Source: a virus. Taken from it: 26,112 bases of DNA. Shown here one piece after another: positions 3,795 to 26,112 of this stretch (position 1 is the stretch's first letter; each line of letters begins with the position of its first letter). A program made the translations under genes and the position numbers. The notes under the pieces are model-generated. The model was not told where the DNA came from, did no database searches, and was given only the letters and a program-made list of their open reading frames with translations. The stretch is taken from the IMG/VR virus record IMGVR_UViG_3300048029_000389, positions 1-26,112 of that record. One strand, written 5' to 3'.

Positions 3795-4051
3795 GAGGTG
3801 CATCAACTTCCTTTGGTTACGAAGATGTTGCGCTTTTAGATATATACTTAAATGGAGGAAAATCATTTACTCCTTTTATATCTAAATCAATAGCAAAAAC
3901 ATTAAGAACAAAGGCATACAAAGCATTAGTCAAGGAGTATTCAGTTAATGAAAAAGTACATGAATTAGATGCAGAAATAGAAGTAGATTGTATTATTTGC
4001 TGTCTACTAATAGAAAAGATGGCAGAGCATATAGACTATATCAAAAATTGA
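3791..4051 (+). CDS. hypothetical protein, 86 aa
   Basis: This small soluble protein begins MRGASTSFGYEDVALLDIYLNGGKSF and ends EKMAEHIDYIKN. A central basic helix (SIAKTLRTKAYKALVKEY) is followed by an acidic one. Its ATG overlaps the stop of the OB-fold gene, so it is probably translated with it and may act in the same step. No family is recognised. Confidence 0.6.
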   Translation: MRGASTSFGYEDVALLDIYLNGGKSFTPFISKSIAKTLRTKAYKALVKEYSVNEKVHELDAEIEVDCIICCLLIEKMAEHIDYIKN

Positions 4052-11984: not shown

Positions 11985-14087
11985 ATGAGTATATTTAGTG
12001 ACATTAAATCTGCGTTTACAAAAAAAGGAAGTATGCCTCAAAAATTTGGAGGATTTGATGCAGAAGAAAATAAAAAAATCTTTGAACATCTCGAACGATT
12101 AGCAGGTGTAAAGATTGATAAAATATCAGACTACGATAGTTATTTTGATGCAGTTCTAGGAAAAATATGGGCATCATATAGAGCGTGCGATATGGTTGCT
12201 AGTGTAGTATCAAATGTAAGCTATGGATTAGTTGATAAGAACGGAAATCCAAAAGTAGACAAAGAAATACAAAGATCACTAACTCATCCAAACACGCACG
12301 AAACTTTTAGAGAATTGCTGTACATAACTGCAATGCAGATAAAAATGACAGGTAATGCCTATTGGTATAAGGAAAGAAAAACACTAGGTGGAGAATTTGA
12401 GCTAATTCCTTTATATCCTCAGTATATTAAAATTATTCCTGACCCAAAGAAAAAAATTGGAACATACGAATATACAAGAAATGGAAATACAACATATTAT
12501 AAACCTGAGCAAATCATACATTTTAAAAAACCTAATCCGTCTGATCCTGTATTAGGCATAGGAGACATAGAAGCATCTGAAGTATTATTTCAAGACTTCT
12601 TAAATCAAGGTAAGATAAGAACAAAAGGATTAGAAAGGGGGAATATACCCGCAGGCGTTTTAGTTAGAGAAGAATATGAAGGAGATGAAGCAGAATGGGA
12701 AAGAGCTAAATCAGCATGGGAAAGAAAATATATAGGAAAAACAAGAGGCTCAGGAGGAATTGCGTGGCTTACAGGAAAGTGGAACTTTCTAAAAATAGGA
12801 ACGACGCCACAAGAGCAGGAATCTATTGAGTTTGAAAAGAAAACAGAAAGAGAAATATTCTTAGCACATGGAGTGCCTGCTAGTATTGCAGGATTTGAAA
12901 ACGCAACTAATTATGCAACAGCAAGACAAGATTATATAAATTTTACAAGATTTACTTGCTTGCCACTAGTTCAATTAATATTTGCAAGAATTAATGATCC
13001 TGACGAATGGATTAAAACAAAAAATGAAAATCTAGAAGTAGAGTTTCAAATAGATGGATTGTTAGATGTAGAGCAATTGGTAAAAGATTATAAACCTTTA
13101 GTGGATTGCGGAGCAATGTCTTTAAATGAATTAAGAGTAAGATGCGGACTAAAAGCAACAAACAATCCCGACCATGATAATTTTTATTCTAATTCCTCTG
13201 TAGTTACTTTAGAAAACATATCAACAGAAGGAATAGAACCTATTGAAAGCATACCACAGCAATCAGAAGTCAAGCCTGTAGAAAGCAAGCCTGTAGTTGA
13301 GGAAGAAGAAATTATAGATGAAGACGAGCAAGAAGAAAAAGCACTTTATGAAGTGTATGGCGAGAAAGTAGAATCTGTTCCGTCTTATGTAAGTGCAAAT
13401 GCTAGAAGAGGATTAGAACTTAGAGGAAAATACGGAGGAAGTGGCTTAACTCCAAAGACGATTAGAGAAGCAAGATTAATGGGAAGAGGTGAAATTAGTG
13501 ACTCTAAGGTTATTAGAATGAGTGCTTGGTTTTTAAGGCATGAGTCAGATTTAGCAAGTCCAAGAGCAAACGAATATTTAAATGGAGAAACTGACAGACC
13601 TACAGCAGGTCAAGTGGCTTGGTTGCTATGGGGAGGAGACTTAGGGAAGTCAAATAGAATGCGTGCGCAAAAATGGGCAGAACGACAAGCGAATAGAATA
13701 AGAGAAAGCGGAAGCAAAATAGTAGAAGTAAAATCTATAAAATCAAGATCGTGGAAGTTCAATGAAGAGGTATACAATAAAAATGTGTCAAAAAATGCAA
13801 AAAGAGCTTTAGCATATTTAGATTCACATAAGCCTAATTGGGACGACTCAAAAGTATTTAAAGGAGCATATTCATATCCTGAGTTACGTGGAATAGCGAG
13901 TGTGTTAGCTAGGAAAGTAAATGTTAGCTACAAAAGTATGTGCAAAATCGCAAATGCAAATAGAATAGGCGAGAGAGAACTGCAAAAAATAGAAGACGAT
14001 ACATATGAAAATGTAGATGCACTAATATTAGATTTACTAGGAGGATTAACATTTATAAGATGGGCAAGTGAAGAAGTTGGCGACTAA
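11985..14087 (+). CDS. portal protein with two extra C-terminal domains
   Basis: This encodes 700 aa. Residues 1 to about 420 are an HK97-family portal: SYRACDMVASVVSNVSYGLVD, TGNAYWYKERK, FELIPLYPQYIKI, IIHFKKPNPSDPVLGIGDIEA, then ATNYATARQDYINFTRFTCLPL. The dodecameric portal is the DNA entry and exit channel at one capsid vertex. After an acidic linker come two additions. Residues about 465-560 contain RRGLELRGKYGGSGLTPKTI and PTAGQVAWLLWGGDLG, a block I recall from other phage structural proteins, function unknown. Residues about 595-700 (KNAKRALAYLD ... ILDLLGGLTFIRWA) resemble part of the protease. No Shine-Dalgarno is visible. No terminase precedes it. Confidence 0.88.
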   Translation: MSIFSDIKSAFTKKGSMPQKFGGFDAEENKKIFEHLERLAGVKIDKISDYDSYFDAVLGKIWASYRACDMVASVVSNVSYGLVDKNGNPKVDKEIQRSLTHPNTHETFRELLYITAMQIKMTGNAYWYKERKTLGGEFELIPLYPQYIKIIPDPKKKIGTYEYTRNGNTTYYKPEQIIHFKKPNPSDPVLGIGDIEASEVLFQDFLNQGKIRTKGLERGNIPAGVLVREEYEGDEAEWERAKSAWERKYIGKTRGSGGIAWLTGKWNFLKIGTTPQEQESIEFEKKTEREIFLAHGVPASIAGFENATNYATARQDYINFTRFTCLPLVQLIFARINDPDEWIKTKNENLEVEFQIDGLLDVEQLVKDYKPLVDCGAMSLNELRVRCGLKATNNPDHDNFYSNSSVVTLENISTEGIEPIESIPQQSEVKPVESKPVVEEEEIIDEDEQEEKALYEVYGEKVESVPSYVSANARRGLELRGKYGGSGLTPKTIREARLMGRGEISDSKVIRMSAWFLRHESDLASPRANEYLNGETDRPTAGQVAWLLWGGDLGKSNRMRAQKWAERQANRIRESGSKIVEVKSIKSRSWKFNEEVYNKNVSKNAKRALAYLDSHKPNWDDSKVFKGAYSYPELRGIASVLARKVNVSYKSMCKIANANRIGERELQKIEDDTYENVDALILDLLGGLTFIRWASEEVGD

Positions 14088-16156: not shown

Positions 16157-18022
16157 ATGAAAATATTACAAGTCTCATTTGATTATAAAAATCCTTCTTT
16201 AAGTCGTTCTAAATTTAGAATGTTGCCATTTACTTATGTGCAAAGTTTAAAGAAAACATATTCGTTTTTATGGAATGCAGGTATTTCTGAACTTGCAGAT
16301 GATGCATTTGAAGTTTGGTCGCAACACGAAAAAGGTGAAAATGTAGATTTCAATAAATGGATTAAGCAAAGAGAAAAATACGGAGAGCTACACATAAATG
16401 ATGTAAATCATTTGTTACGCGAAAAAATAACACCAAGAAACTCAGGAACATTTATTTCTTTGCTTAAATGGGGAATTATACCAAATTTTGGAATACAAAA
16501 AACAAAATCACTAATTGCTGATTTAATTGATAGTGATTGGACAATGGGAAAAGTTAAATTTGAAAAAACTTTTAACGATTATCCAAGTACAGCAGTTGAG
16601 AATGCAAAGAGGGCTTTAGCTCAATTAGACACAAAAGTAGGCAAACGTGTAAACAATGTTTTTGCATCTCATGTAGCAAGAAAACTTTCACAAGGATACA
16701 AGTTTACATTTAATGAAATTCAAAAAATTGCTTCGTTTATTGTTCACAAAAAAATAGCAAACAAGTCGTATGACGATGACGCTAGTGCTATTGTTTGGGA
16801 TTGCTTAGGTGGCACAAACGGAATAATGTGGGCAAAAAGAAGAGCAGATAGCTTTAAGAAAATGCCTGAGCTTGTAGAAATAGAAGGCTACAAAAAAGCA
16901 GATTGCTTAAGTAATGAAACCTGTAATTCCTGCTTGTTTGCCAAAAAAGGATGGTGTGAACAAAATAATGCACCAATCATAGGTGATTATGTATGCAAAG
17001 ATTGGCAAGACAATGAGGATAAAGATAATTCTACACTAATTGGCTTAGATAGTGATGCTAGAAAACGAAGAAAGCAATTAGAGGAAAGAGCTATTAATTT
17101 TAATAGAGCCACTAGTGCAAAAGCTAATAACTTAATAGCGTCTAAGAGAATAGGAAAAGAAGACGGATATGAAAAAAGCGAATACATACAAAATTACGGA
17201 TGGGATGAATTTGCTAAGTGGTTTGTAGGACAAAACACAGAATATTCTAAACGCTCATATAATAGGTATGTTTATCCAATTACTGACAATTTTGTTACAC
17301 TTTCTCAGTCAGCGATCAAGGCGTCTAAGACAAAAGCAGGACTTCGAGGACATAGACAAGTTTTAGAAGAGTTGATCAGAATAGAAAGTCAAGTAAAGCA
17401 CATTCTAAGAGTAGAAGAAACAGATGACTCATATATTGTTGAATTTGGAAAAACTGAAAATCAAATTCAAGAAAGCGAAGAAGAAAGATCAGTAACAGAA
17501 AAAGAAGAAAAATCTTTTAGATTTGCGAACAAAAGGAAGCCAACCTTTAAAGTAATTAAAGATGAAAATGGGGCAGTCGTAGATTATCAAGATGTACGTA
17601 TTGCAGGCTATGGTTCTACGAATGAGGAGATAACAAAAGCAGATAGAGGTGGCGACTATTTACGCAAAGGTGCTTTCAAGAAAACTATTAAAAAGTTTAT
17701 GAACAATCCTGTAATGTTAGCGGATCATGCAAATTCCACAAAAACAATAGTCGGAAAATACACTCATGTAGAAGAAGATGAAAAAGGATTATACATTGAG
17801 GGAGAGTTAAGCAATTCACCTGAGCAAAAAAATATAAGATTTCAAGTAGCAGAGGGTAATCTACAAACTATGAGCATTGGAGGTATCTTCAAATACGAAG
17901 AAGATGGCAAAGCAATTGAAGAAGTGGACTTAATGGAGATTTCATTAGTAGCAATTCCAATGAATCCTGATGCAAGATTTATTGTAAAAGAAGCAAGCGA
18001 AGAAAATATTGAAAAAATTTAA
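16157..18022 (+). CDS. HK97-type prohead protease with a long multidomain N-terminal extension
   Basis: This encodes 621 aa. The protease is only the last about 170 residues: VRIAGYGSTNEEITKADRGGD near 470, then PVMLADHANSTKTIVGKY near 516 (catalytic His in DH), LQTMSIGGIFKY near 568 (catalytic Ser), and EISLVAIPMNPDA near 596. It should mature the capsid by cleaving scaffold. The first 450 residues are extra. They include about 144-230 (NAKRALAQLD ... AIVWDCLGGTNGIMWAKRR), matching the portal C-terminus; a Cys cluster at about 248-283 (CLSNETCNSCLFAKKGWC ... CKDW) that may bind zinc; and about 360-410 (RYVYPITDNFVTLSQSAIKA). A normal protease of this family is about 200 aa. No Shine-Dalgarno is visible. 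Confidence 0.85.
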   Translation: MKILQVSFDYKNPSLSRSKFRMLPFTYVQSLKKTYSFLWNAGISELADDAFEVWSQHEKGENVDFNKWIKQREKYGELHINDVNHLLREKITPRNSGTFISLLKWGIIPNFGIQKTKSLIADLIDSDWTMGKVKFEKTFNDYPSTAVENAKRALAQLDTKVGKRVNNVFASHVARKLSQGYKFTFNEIQKIASFIVHKKIANKSYDDDASAIVWDCLGGTNGIMWAKRRADSFKKMPELVEIEGYKKADCLSNETCNSCLFAKKGWCEQNNAPIIGDYVCKDWQDNEDKDNSTLIGLDSDARKRRKQLEERAINFNRATSAKANNLIASKRIGKEDGYEKSEYIQNYGWDEFAKWFVGQNTEYSKRSYNRYVYPITDNFVTLSQSAIKASKTKAGLRGHRQVLEELIRIESQVKHILRVEETDDSYIVEFGKTENQIQESEEERSVTEKEEKSFRFANKRKPTFKVIKDENGAVVDYQDVRIAGYGSTNEEITKADRGGDYLRKGAFKKTIKKFMNNPVMLADHANSTKTIVGKYTHVEEDEKGLYIEGELSNSPEQKNIRFQVAEGNLQTMSIGGIFKYEEDGKAIEEVDLMEISLVAIPMNPDARFIVKEASEENIEKI

Positions 18023-22783: not shown

Positions 22784-23212
22784 ATGGCTACAGATAACGG
22801 AAATAGTATTAAATTTGCAGGAGGCGCAGCTTCCGATTTTAATAAAACAGCATGGGGTATTGATGCTAATCAAGCAGGATTTTCTGCTACACAAAGCATA
22901 TCCATAACTCAAAGTATGTCCACCGTGGAAGCAAAGAATAACCAAGGTGAGGTTATTGGTGTGCTTGTTTACGATAAACGTGCTGAATTAACAATTGAAG
23001 GCATTGCAAATCAACTTGGAGATTTAGATGTTAATCAAATTGGTGAAAGTTTAAGTGGCTTAAACGGAACAGATGGTTCAGGTTTAGACTCAGACTTAAA
23101 TAGTGCAACAATTATGATTACAGAAATTGGTGTTGAGCTTTCCAATGAAGATTGGAAGCGTTTTAGCTTAAAAGGACAAATGTACGAATTGGTTACAGAA
23201 ACTGCTTCCTAG
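22784..23212 (+). CDS. major tail tube-like protein
   Basis: This encodes 142 aa. The start has the best Shine-Dalgarno in the window (AAAGGAG, GGAG at 22771-22774, nine bases from the ATG). The block STVEAKNNQGEVIGVLVYDKRAELTIEG near 47 and a beta-rich remainder (NSATIMITEIGVELSNEDWK, GQMYELV) resemble tail-tube proteins, which polymerise around the tape measure. A strong translation start and a strong terminator directly after the gene fit a major structural protein. Family assignment is from pattern and position only. Confidence 0.65.
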   Translation: MATDNGNSIKFAGGAASDFNKTAWGIDANQAGFSATQSISITQSMSTVEAKNNQGEVIGVLVYDKRAELTIEGIANQLGDLDVNQIGESLSGLNGTDGSGLDSDLNSATIMITEIGVELSNEDWKRFSLKGQMYELVTETAS

Positions 23213-23254: not shown

Positions 23255-23668
23255 ATGAAGACTACAAAAGCGAACATTCGCATATTTCAAACTAGCGACA
23301 CTAAATTAGCGTCGTTTTTAATAACGTCAGGACATCTTCCAATGTCTCCACCTCTTATAAAGAGGGAAGAAAAAGGTAAGACAAAAGGATTTTGGCGATT
23401 TAATAACTTTGAAGAGTTAAACCAATATGGCAAAACTCTAGATCAAAGTTTAGGCGTATGGAAAAAAGGCATAAAACACATAGAGGAAAATCCTAAAGAT
23501 TATGAATCTAAGATTATGCAAGCACTTAAAACATACGACTATTTAACATCTCAGTTTAATCGTGACGATTTAGGTAATACATTAGTATTTTATACGATAG
23601 ATGGAAATACATTCTCTGCTGTTAAGGGAAGCAAGAAAGACGAGTTATTAAAAAAGAAAATAAAATAA
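23255..23668 (+). CDS. DUF5659-like protein upstream of the tail chaperone, 137 aa
   Basis: The N-terminus (IRIFQTSDTKLASFLITSGH near 8-27) and the following FWRFNNFEELNQYGKTLDQS resemble DUF5659, a small phage domain of unknown function. The C-terminal half is helical and basic (SKKDELLKKKIK). The start codon follows the terminator U-tract directly and the stop is immediately followed by the chaperone ATG. The position suggests a tail-assembly accessory role. The DUF call is from memory of the pattern. Confidence 0.5.
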   Translation: MKTTKANIRIFQTSDTKLASFLITSGHLPMSPPLIKREEKGKTKGFWRFNNFEELNQYGKTLDQSLGVWKKGIKHIEENPKDYESKIMQALKTYDYLTSQFNRDDLGNTLVFYTIDGNTFSAVKGSKKDELLKKKIK

Positions 23669-24136
23669 ATGACAAAGACAAAGACAAAGGTAAAAAAAGA
23701 AAAAGACGATGATGAAAAGTTTGTAGATAGCTTGCTAACTCAATCAAAATCTCAGTCCGTAATACATGGCATAAACTTAAGAGCGCCAACATTAGCTACT
23801 TTAGCAATCTTAACAAGAGCGGATAATGCTTTAGTTACAGGAAAGAATCTTAGTGAGTCAGATGTAATGATGCACGTATTGGTTTTTCTATATGTTCACT
23901 CTGCTCCAATAGAAGAAGTTCATGGTGCTTCAATTGTGTCGCCTATTGCAGGGCAAAATTTAGCACTAGAAAGAAAGGCTTTAGAGCTAGGTGAAACATT
24001 AAAATATAAAAGTGCTAGTGATTTTATAAAATTGTACGAGGATTTGGTTAAGTGGCTGTCTGAGCATATGGATTTGCAAGTTGAGGCAATACCTGATGAA
24101 ACTAACAAAGGGAAAGCTCCAAACCCAAACGAGTAA
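23669..24136 (+). CDS. tail assembly chaperone, short (G-like) form
   Basis: This encodes 155 aa. After a Lys/Asp-rich start (TKVKKEKDDDEKFVDSLLTQ) comes a helical domain (RAPTLATLAILTRADNALVT, DVMMHVLVFLYVHSAPIEEV, YEDLVKWLSEHMD). It lies between the tail-tube region and the tape measure, as gene G does in lambda. Most ribosomes would stop at TAA 24134-24136. Some should slip -1 at AAACCCA (24121-24127) and make the longer form. The chaperone coats the tape measure during tail assembly and is absent from the virion in known cases. Confidence 0.75.
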   Translation: MTKTKTKVKKEKDDDEKFVDSLLTQSKSQSVIHGINLRAPTLATLAILTRADNALVTGKNLSESDVMMHVLVFLYVHSAPIEEVHGASIVSPIAGQNLALERKALELGETLKYKSASDFIKLYEDLVKWLSEHMDLQVEAIPDETNKGKAPNPNE

Positions 24137-24348
24137 ACCCACCTTATACAGCACGGATACTAACAATTGTGTCCGAAGTAACAGGTATAGAGGTGGGAAA
24201 AATTTTCTACCATATGCCAATCAGAAGCGTACACGCTTATCAGCATTGCTACATGGCATCTAATGGTGTAGACTGCAAGTACCCAAAGGGAAGAAAGGGT
24301 AAGAATACATTACAAGAATTAAACGAGTGGACTAAAGAAAATGGCTGA
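23669..24348 (+). CDS. tail assembly chaperone, long (GT-like) form made by -1 frameshift
   Basis: A -1 slip at 24121-24127 joins the first 153 residues of the short form to a second frame of 73 residues (24127-24348), about 226 aa in all. The extension reads KRVNPPYTARILTIVSEVTG, then IEVGKIFYHMPIRSVHAYQH, CYMASNGVDCKYP and a basic end. This resembles T-domain sequences of other tail chaperones and cannot be made from its own ATG: the frame opens only after TAA 24103-24105 and has no ATG until 24214. It ends at TGA 24346-24348, overlapping the tape-measure start at 24341. Confidence 0.72.
24121..24127 (+). other. -1 ribosomal frameshift site AAACCCA
   Basis: The heptamer fits X XXY YYZ in the chaperone's frame (A AAC CCA to AAA CCC A). 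It ends seven bases before the zero-frame stop. A large stem-loop begins ten bases downstream. Confidence 0.7.
24138..24197 (+). promoter_or_regulatory. frameshift-stimulating stem-loop
   Basis: CCCACCTTATAC (24138-24149) pairs with GTATAGAGGTGGG (24185-24197) through 12 base pairs with one bulged G at 24190. Inside, CGGATAC (24154-24160) pairs with GTGTCCG (24169-24175) with one G-T wobble around an 8-nt loop. The spacer from the slippery site is 10 nt, near the usual range for -1 stimulators. Confidence 0.65.
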
Positions 24349-26112
24349 TAAAAACTTAAACATTAACATTAGTGTAAGAACGCAAAACACTAATAAAAAG
24401 TTATCTCAGATAAATACTCAACTAAAGCAGTTGTCTAGAGGTGCTAATACAGCATCAGCGAACACAACAAAATTGGGTATAGGATTTAAGTCAGCATTTA
24501 CACAGCTATCAGCATTCACAGGCGGAATGATAGCACTTAGTAGTACATTCAGAGTGTTTAGCTTTGGTGTTAGTCAGATGGTGCATTTTGAGAAGACAAT
24601 GCGCCAAGTGAAAGCAGTTACTCAAGCAACAGAAGCACAATTTAAGTCCTTAAGTAATACAGCTAGGCAACTAGGTGCAACTACATCATTTTCAGCAACT
24701 GAGTCCGCAGAAGGATTAAGATTTTTAGCTATGGCAGGCTTTTCAGTAGAAGAGTCTATGCAAGCGTTACTTCCTACTTTGCAATTGGCAAAAGCAGGCA
24801 ATATGGATTTAGGAAGATCGGCAGACATTGTATCGAACATTATGCGTGCAATGAATATGGAAGCATCCAAGACAGCAGAAGCAGGTGACATCTTGGCACA
24901 GGCGGCGCGTAGTTCAAACACAAGTATAGAACAACTAGGTGATGCATTTAAATATGCAGGTGGAATTGCAGGAAATTTAGGACTTACACTTGAAGAAACA
25001 ACTGCTGTGTTAAGTACATTGTCAAATGCAGGTATGCAGGCATCTATGGCAGGTACAGGATTGCGTCAAGTTTTAACAAAGTTGGTAAATCCAAGTGCTA
25101 GTATGCGAGAAGTGTTCAAGTCTGTAGGCATAGAAGTTGATCAGTTAGATATTTCAGCTAACAATCTTGTACCAACGTTAAGAAAGCTACAGCAGTCAGG
25201 ATTAACTACAGGTGAAATATTCTCAGCATTTGAAGCACGAGCAGGTACTGCATTTAGTGTATTAATGGGTGGCATTGACGACCTAGAAAAGTTAAGTCAA
25301 AAAAATGCAGAAGCAAGTGGCACGCTTGACGATATGGCAAAAGTCATGGAGGACTCGCTTCATAATTCTGCAAAACTTTTACAATCAGCATTTTCAGAAT
25401 TATTTATTAGTCAAAATGAGTTACATAATGGCATGAGAGGAATGCTTGATACTCTAACAATGGCAATAAATATATTTAATGGAACAGCGACATCTGTAGA
25501 CAAATATGGACAAAAACAAGATGAGCTAATCGTTAAAGCAAATAAATTAATAATTGTATTAAAAGCTATTGGAGTAGCAATTACAGGTGCAATGGCATTC
25601 AAAGCATTAAGTGCTACAATAAAAGTGTGTAGTTCAGCAATGGCAATGCTAGGACTAACAACATCGGCAACTACAAAAGCTATTGTACTACAGAATGGAA
25701 CACTAAAGGCAATGGCAGGTGCTACAATTCCGTCTGTACTTTCTAAAATAAGTCAAGCTGTGGCAAGTATGGCATTGTTTAAGAATACTATAATAGCATC
25801 GTCTTTGGCTGTAAGGGGTTTTGCTATTGCGTTAGCATCGACAGGAATAGGTGCTATTGTGGTAGCGGTAGGATATTTAATAGGAAAACTATTAGACTTA
25901 TCAGCGCAGTCAAATGCTACCAAAGATATGCTAATAAGTGATGCAAATGCTGTAGTTACAGAATTGCAAGCACTAAGAGGATCATACGATTCACTCAGAG
26001 ATAGCGCAGAAAGTGCGGGAACGGCAAGCGAAACATCATTTTCTAGAACAGCACAGAAGATAATGGAGTTGGAAGGCATTGCATCTGAAGCATCAGAGGC
26101 ATTAGAGGAATT
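24341..26112 (+). CDS. tail tape measure protein (partial, runs off the right edge)
   Basis: The frame is open for about 590 residues to the window end. It starts MADKNLNINISVRTQNTNKK. It contains the TP901-type tape-measure core at about 80-290: KTMRQVKAVTQATEAQFKSL, LGATTSFSATESAEGLRFLA, SIEQLGDAFKYAGGIAGNLG, EETTAVLSTLSNAGMQASM and GLRQVLTKLVNPSASMREVF. Hydrophobic segments follow (IVLKAIGVAITGAMAFKAL, and IALASTGIGAIVVAVGYLIG near 500), which in other phages help DNA cross the membrane. Its length sets tail length. The start overlaps the long chaperone form by 8 nt. Confidence 0.9.
   Translation, partial: MADKNLNINISVRTQNTNKKLSQINTQLKQLSRGANTASANTTKLGIGFKSAFTQLSAFTGGMIALSSTFRVFSFGVSQMVHFEKTMRQVKAVTQATEAQFKSLSNTARQLGATTSFSATESAEGLRFLAMAGFSVEESMQALLPTLQLAKAGNMDLGRSADIVSNIMRAMNMEASKTAEAGDILAQAARSSNTSIEQLGDAFKYAGGIAGNLGLTLEETTAVLSTLSNAGMQASMAGTGLRQVLTKLVNPSASMREVFKSVGIEVDQLDISANNLVPTLRKLQQSGLTTGEIFSAFEARAGTAFSVLMGGIDDLEKLSQKNAEASGTLDDMAKVMEDSLHNSAKLLQSAFSELFISQNELHNGMRGMLDTLTMAINIFNGTATSVDKYGQKQDELIVKANKLIIVLKAIGVAITGAMAFKALSATIKVCSSAMAMLGLTTSATTKAIVLQNGTLKAMAGATIPSVLSKISQAVASMALFKNTIIASSLAVRGFAIALASTGIGAIVVAVGYLIGKLLDLSAQSNATKDMLISDANAVVTELQALRGSYDSLRDSAESAGTASETSFSRTAQKIMELEGIASEASEALEE

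Follow-up and report, generated by a model that had tools for sequence, protein, structure and literature searches.

Eight homologous loci support a programmed -1 frameshift in a probable tail assembly chaperone gene of an IMG/VR virus

In the viral DNA analysed here (the window: 26,112 nucleotides, positions 1 to 26,112 of IMG/VR record IMGVR_UViG_3300048029_000389), an ORF of 155 codons stops just ahead of a tape measure gene, and the -1 frame remains open past its stop. This raises the question of whether ribosomes enter the second frame and, if they do, on which of two overlapping slippery heptamers. We conclude that the locus is very probably a G/GT-type tail assembly chaperone gene like that of phage lambda, in which a -1 slip at C CCA AAC yields a 226-aa fusion. 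An initial annotation of this DNA had proposed a programmed -1 frameshift with a hairpin just upstream of the tape measure, and a second product that ordinary gene calling would miss. Comparison of eight homologous loci strongly supports both proposals; the slip site and the junction are revised below. The features are listed in Table 1.

Table 1. Features of the chaperone locus and its neighbours in the window.
Feature	Position	Strand	Basis or remark
Candidate major tail (tube) protein	22784..23212	+	position only
Companion gene preceding the chaperone, conserved, 137 aa, no assigned function	23255..23668	+	profile
Short putative tail assembly chaperone, 0-frame ORF, G-like by position, 155 aa	23669..24136	+	ORF call; kept in 8 lineages
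AAACCCA, heptamer of the initial annotation	24121..24127	+	in phase (A AAC CCA), not conserved
Slippery heptamer C CCA AAC (CCCAAAC), supported site	24124..24130	+	in phase; X XXA AAC in 8/8 homologous loci
-1 frame extension, T-like position	24130..24348	+	x-[VI]-x-P-P motif after slip site, 8 lineages
7-nt spacer, heptamer to hairpin	24131..24137	+	holds 0-frame TAA
Two-layer hairpin	24138..24197	+	outer arms 24138-24149 with 24185-24188 and 24190-24197; inner arms 24154-24160 with 24169-24175
ATGGCTGA, tape-measure start overlapping extension stop	24341..24348	+	same overlap in L006, L008
Tail length tape measure protein, truncated at the window end (N-terminal part)	24341..26110	+	phrog_1533 E 3.7e-77; PF10145 E 2.1e-44

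The frame layout agrees with the initial annotation. The 0-frame stop TAA at 24134-24136 is present, as are the 212 nt of open -1 frame beyond it; this frame is open from after a TAA at 24103 through TGA at 24346-24348, and the extension, counted from CGA (24130-24132) to that stop, comprises 72 codons. The claim that no upstream ATG serves the -1 frame is also borne out, since in the window neither ATG nor GTG or TTG stands in that frame ahead of the conserved start of the extension. The locus thus shows the arrangement that marks the G/GT type: two overlapping ORFs lie directly upstream of the tape measure gene, and the second, read in the -1 frame, has no start of its own. It also has an in-phase heptamer conserved at the overlap and a downstream frame under protein-level selection.

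These last two features were recognized by comparison with related loci. Single-query IMG/VR searches with the chaperone and the extension returned the same phage twice (contigs with 99.96% DNA identity to the window), the nearly identical L006 and L007, and L008; L009 was set aside, its gene context being unrelated and its match due to chance. Tape-measure scans gave many further loci, and profile searches over candidate ORFs and then over all six-frame ORFs identified L058 and then L164, L151, L146 and L155, the last four with both chaperone and extension at E 5e-13 or better (L151 equals L153 in this region, and L146 equals L147). Seven further distinct homologous loci were therefore available, giving eight sequences with the window. 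Their counterparts of the 155-aa protein are 81, 70, 35, 27, 25, 25 and 23% identical to that of the window. No further family members were found with a looser DNA pattern around the slip site, and a genome scan with the chaperone alignment found nothing.

The extension lies in the -1 frame in all eight loci, and its first 30 codons from the slip site align gap-free. Eight of its residues never vary among the eight lineages; these include the P-P after the third residue and the M-P 30 codons from the heptamer. In 57 -1 frame codons compared between the window and L008, substitutions number 12, 5 and 27 at codon positions 1, 2 and 3. Judged from these sequences, the extension is protein coding. 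Separately, 25 nt (CACGCTTATCAGCATTGCTACATGG, 24232-24256), well downstream of the hairpin, are the same in the window, L006 and L008, without synonymous change; this may reflect RNA-level constraint or chance.

The choice of slip site was decided by the distant relatives. AAACCCAAAC contains two overlapping in-phase heptamers, of which the initial annotation had chosen AAACCCA. Formally its letters fit the X XXY YYZ rule, and in the window it is in phase as stated, but it is missing from all seven other lineages: its position reads GAACCCA in L006, is TCCCCAA-like in L008, and has no counterpart in the five more distant loci. It also lies 10 nt from the hairpin, not 7. The overlapping CCCAAAC, in contrast, belongs to an in-phase X XXA AAC found 0-1 codons ahead of the 0-frame stop in 8/8 loci (one codon in the window). 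Three loci carry CCCAAAC (window, L006, L008), three GGGAAAC (L058, L164, L146) and two AAAAAAC (L151, L155). In the eight-lineage alignment, the 93 nt from the heptamer onward are gap-free; AAAC is invariant, and the three preceding bases vary together. X may be C, G or A, yet its three bases are always identical, as slippage needs. The three heptamer types track three subgroups, so that at least two switches, and not eight independent events, are represented. A slip at AAACCCA, giving APNP-KRVNPP (hyphens here mark the frame change), is therefore very unlikely. The initial annotation had held that related phages lacking the heptamer would speak against the frameshift; this lack counts against AAACCCA as the slip site, and the mechanism stands through X XXA AAC. 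With CCCAAAC as the slip site, the predicted junction follows Asn154 and reads APNPN-RVNPP, in place of the earlier NP-KR.

An in-phase XXXAAAC near a stop codon is rare in this material. Among 1,974 ORF ends (non-redundant, at least 100 aa, both strands, all loci gathered), only 15 carry one no more than about four codons from the stop, and 8 of these 15 are members of this chaperone family. The remaining seven comprise L053 and L065, in each of which a -1 candidate precedes a tape measure; L128, L152, L168 and L169, which were gathered by their tape measure and not individually read; and L027, which was gathered by DNA pattern without a match to these proteins and is counted as background.

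A wider survey covered 95 tape-measure loci (within L046-L212, deduplicated on 60 residues). In 72 of them, a mechanical test registered a -1 extension whose end lies close to the tape measure; the test took the longest upstream ORF, and cases were not individually read. An in-phase heptamer was present in 67 of the 72, compared with 18 out-of-phase heptamers in the same overlaps, the two phases taken together. This test counts heptamers with Y = A or T only and is silent on AAACCCA; it is a survey, not a tally of proven frameshifts. The last site was XXXAAAC in 48 of the 67 and XXXAAAG in 2, a predominance that, within the bounds of a mechanical survey, differs from E. coli, for which a preference for AAAG has been described.

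The 12-bp stem with an inner 7-bp stem that was said to begin 10 nt after AAACCCA was confirmed in the sequence; the outer stem contains one bulged base, and the minimum free energy is -24.8 kcal/mol. None of 1,000 dinucleotide shuffles folded as well (z -5.1). The 75 nt after the heptamer were also compared with 1,000 sequences encoding the same -1 frame protein with the codon use of the locus, and again 0/1000 were as good for the window (z -5.0). With the same control, z was -4.3 for L006, -1.4 for L008, -2.7 for L058, -3.3 for L164, -5.9 for L151, -3.9 for L146 and -2.5 for L155. Structure beyond the synonymous-codon controls is thus found in 7/8 loci (z -2.5 to -5.9), with the first base pair 6-8 nt after the heptamer in each of the seven; for L008 the structure is not significant (92/1000 controls as good).

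The covarying stem expected among relatives was not recovered: no column-wise covariation is seen across the eight-locus family, RNAalifold on the three close sequences gave zero compensatory pairs, and an Rfam search returned no match. Within subgroups, changes on both sides of a pair are few (0-3 per comparison) and some pairs break; between subgroups, the stem pairs shift register, as judged by eye from dot-brackets. Because the structure recurs while its pairs are re-registered between subgroups, a stimulatory structure is supported as a recurring feature and not by classical covariation. An upstream Shine-Dalgarno-like stimulator, AAAGGGA, was considered and rejected, being present in the window and L006 and absent from L008.

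A separate gene in the -1 frame, with its own internal start and no fusion, is likewise very unlikely. All eight loci have a Met codon 30 codons past the heptamer (24214 in the window), which would allow internal initiation. However, none of the eight has an ATG, GTG or TTG between the upstream -1 stop and the P-P motif, which argues against separate initiation; the first possible -1 start lies at least 8 codons past the start of the heptamer, inside the conserved domain, and initiation there would leave the conserved heptamer unexplained. An additional internal product alongside the fusion is possible.

Transcriptional rather than ribosomal slippage into the second frame is scarcely credible: L151 and L155 do have a run of six A, but the window and five other lineages have runs of only three identical bases, which are too short for polymerase slippage, and the downstream hairpin suits a ribosomal signal. 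Seen in one genome only, abutting frames can resemble a split ORF, but a broken gene or sequencing error has next to no chance here, as the same -1 arrangement occurs in eight lineages and the two 99.96%-identical contigs agree.

For the programmed ribosomal frameshift, we propose the following course. Most ribosomes would translate the 0-frame ORF to its stop and release the 155-aa protein. A minority, probably stalled by the hairpin, would step back one base with the Pro and Asn tRNAs on C CCA AAC and continue in the -1 frame to 24348, giving a 226-aa fusion joined as APNPN-RVNPPYTAR. A slip at CCCAAAC predicts APNPNRVNPPYTARILTIVSEVTGIEVGK as the Lys-C junction peptide. In lambda, the binding partner of the short form is the tape measure, and that of the -1 domain is the tail shaft subunit (PMC5009743). 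By analogy with this shared layout, the short form may bind the tape measure, the -1 domain may recruit the tail-tube protein, and the slip frequency may set the ratio of short to long product.

The sequences establish the two frames and the hairpin, and the conservation of both the heptamer and the -1 domain; the chaperone function is what we infer from the layout. Searches of Pfam, NCBIfam, PHROGs and PDB sequences with both products gave no confident match, and tblastn of the window's and some relatives' products against named phages gave no match or only E 0.3. The chaperone family is absent from Pfam and NCBIfam. One weak link comes from L164, whose extension residues 11-65 match positions 3-56 of the phrog_4888 "tail assembly chaperone" profile (E 0.003); the other seven extensions do not match it. 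The "T-like" label of the initial annotation thus holds by position and logic, with thin sequence evidence from this single lineage. A weak local likeness of the extension to thymidylate synthase (window 24124-24345, L008 928-1164; phrog_160, E 7.6e-4 for L008; PDB 6auj, E 0.72 for the extension profile) is probably due to chance. AlphaFold2 models of the products (pLDDT 41 and 57) are helical and too poor for a reliable fold.

The companion gene was found by profile in L006, L008, L058, L164, L146 and L151, and was undetected by profile in L155. The candidate tail tube protein had no confident profile match. Elsewhere in the window, the C-terminal part of the portal protein (11985-14087) and the 16157-18022 protein look alike by eye (NAKRALAYLDSHK and NAKRALAQLDTKV), which suggests a shared fused domain.

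Most genes of the window lack a Shine-Dalgarno sequence of their own. Translation of the frameshifted product terminates, in the window clade, on the tape-measure start (ATGGCTGA). A further proposal can be made, tentatively and as a rather unlikely one: that this is an unusually strict site, combining X XXA AAC 0-1 codons before the stop with a two-layer hairpin whose arms are roughly fixed while its pairs re-register, and that slipped ribosomes may, through the shared stop and start, also feed translation of the tape measure. If true, the chaperone ratio and the tape-measure yield would be tied to one event in the window clade.

The mechanism itself is already known from the G/GT tail-chaperone frameshift; the protein family is unrecognised by the libraries. 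Our analysis brings in a 226-aa product that had no annotation, together with a tail-chaperone family missed by Pfam and NCBIfam, and indicates that distant relatives can decide between two overlapping slippery heptamers. The locus also lends itself readily to tests, on bacterial ribosomes, of X_XXA_AAC sites accompanied by a strong hairpin.

Among named phages, the best relative by tape measure is Roseobacter phage RDJL Phi 2 (NC_041958.1, our locus L018; 34% identity). Its proteins fall short of the profiles of the window chaperone family. Close to the stop of its gp68 lies A AAA AAC in phase (L018 3614-3620), followed by about 125 open -1 codons to 3997 and the tape measure at 4001; the extension is unannotated in the record.

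The g-t slip sites of the haloarchaeal viruses HCTV-1 and -2 are G_GGA_AAC and A_AAA_AAC (PMC5009743). These are the heptamers of the GGG and AAA subgroups of the present family and follow the same logic, in archaeal hosts. In E. coli, A_AAA_AAC promotes slippage less strongly than A_AAA_AAG does (PMC5009743), and this weakness counts against the chaperone frameshift reading.

The closest parallel in layout is lambda gpG/gpGT. As in lambda, the gene lies directly upstream of the tape measure and would give a short form and a longer -1 fusion. The slip heptamer of lambda is GGGAAAG; that of the window is CCCAAAC, with AAC in the A site. Unlike lambda gpG/gpGT, the window has a strong downstream hairpin and a slip site one codon from the stop, and an extra 137-aa gene separates the candidate tail tube gene from the chaperone.
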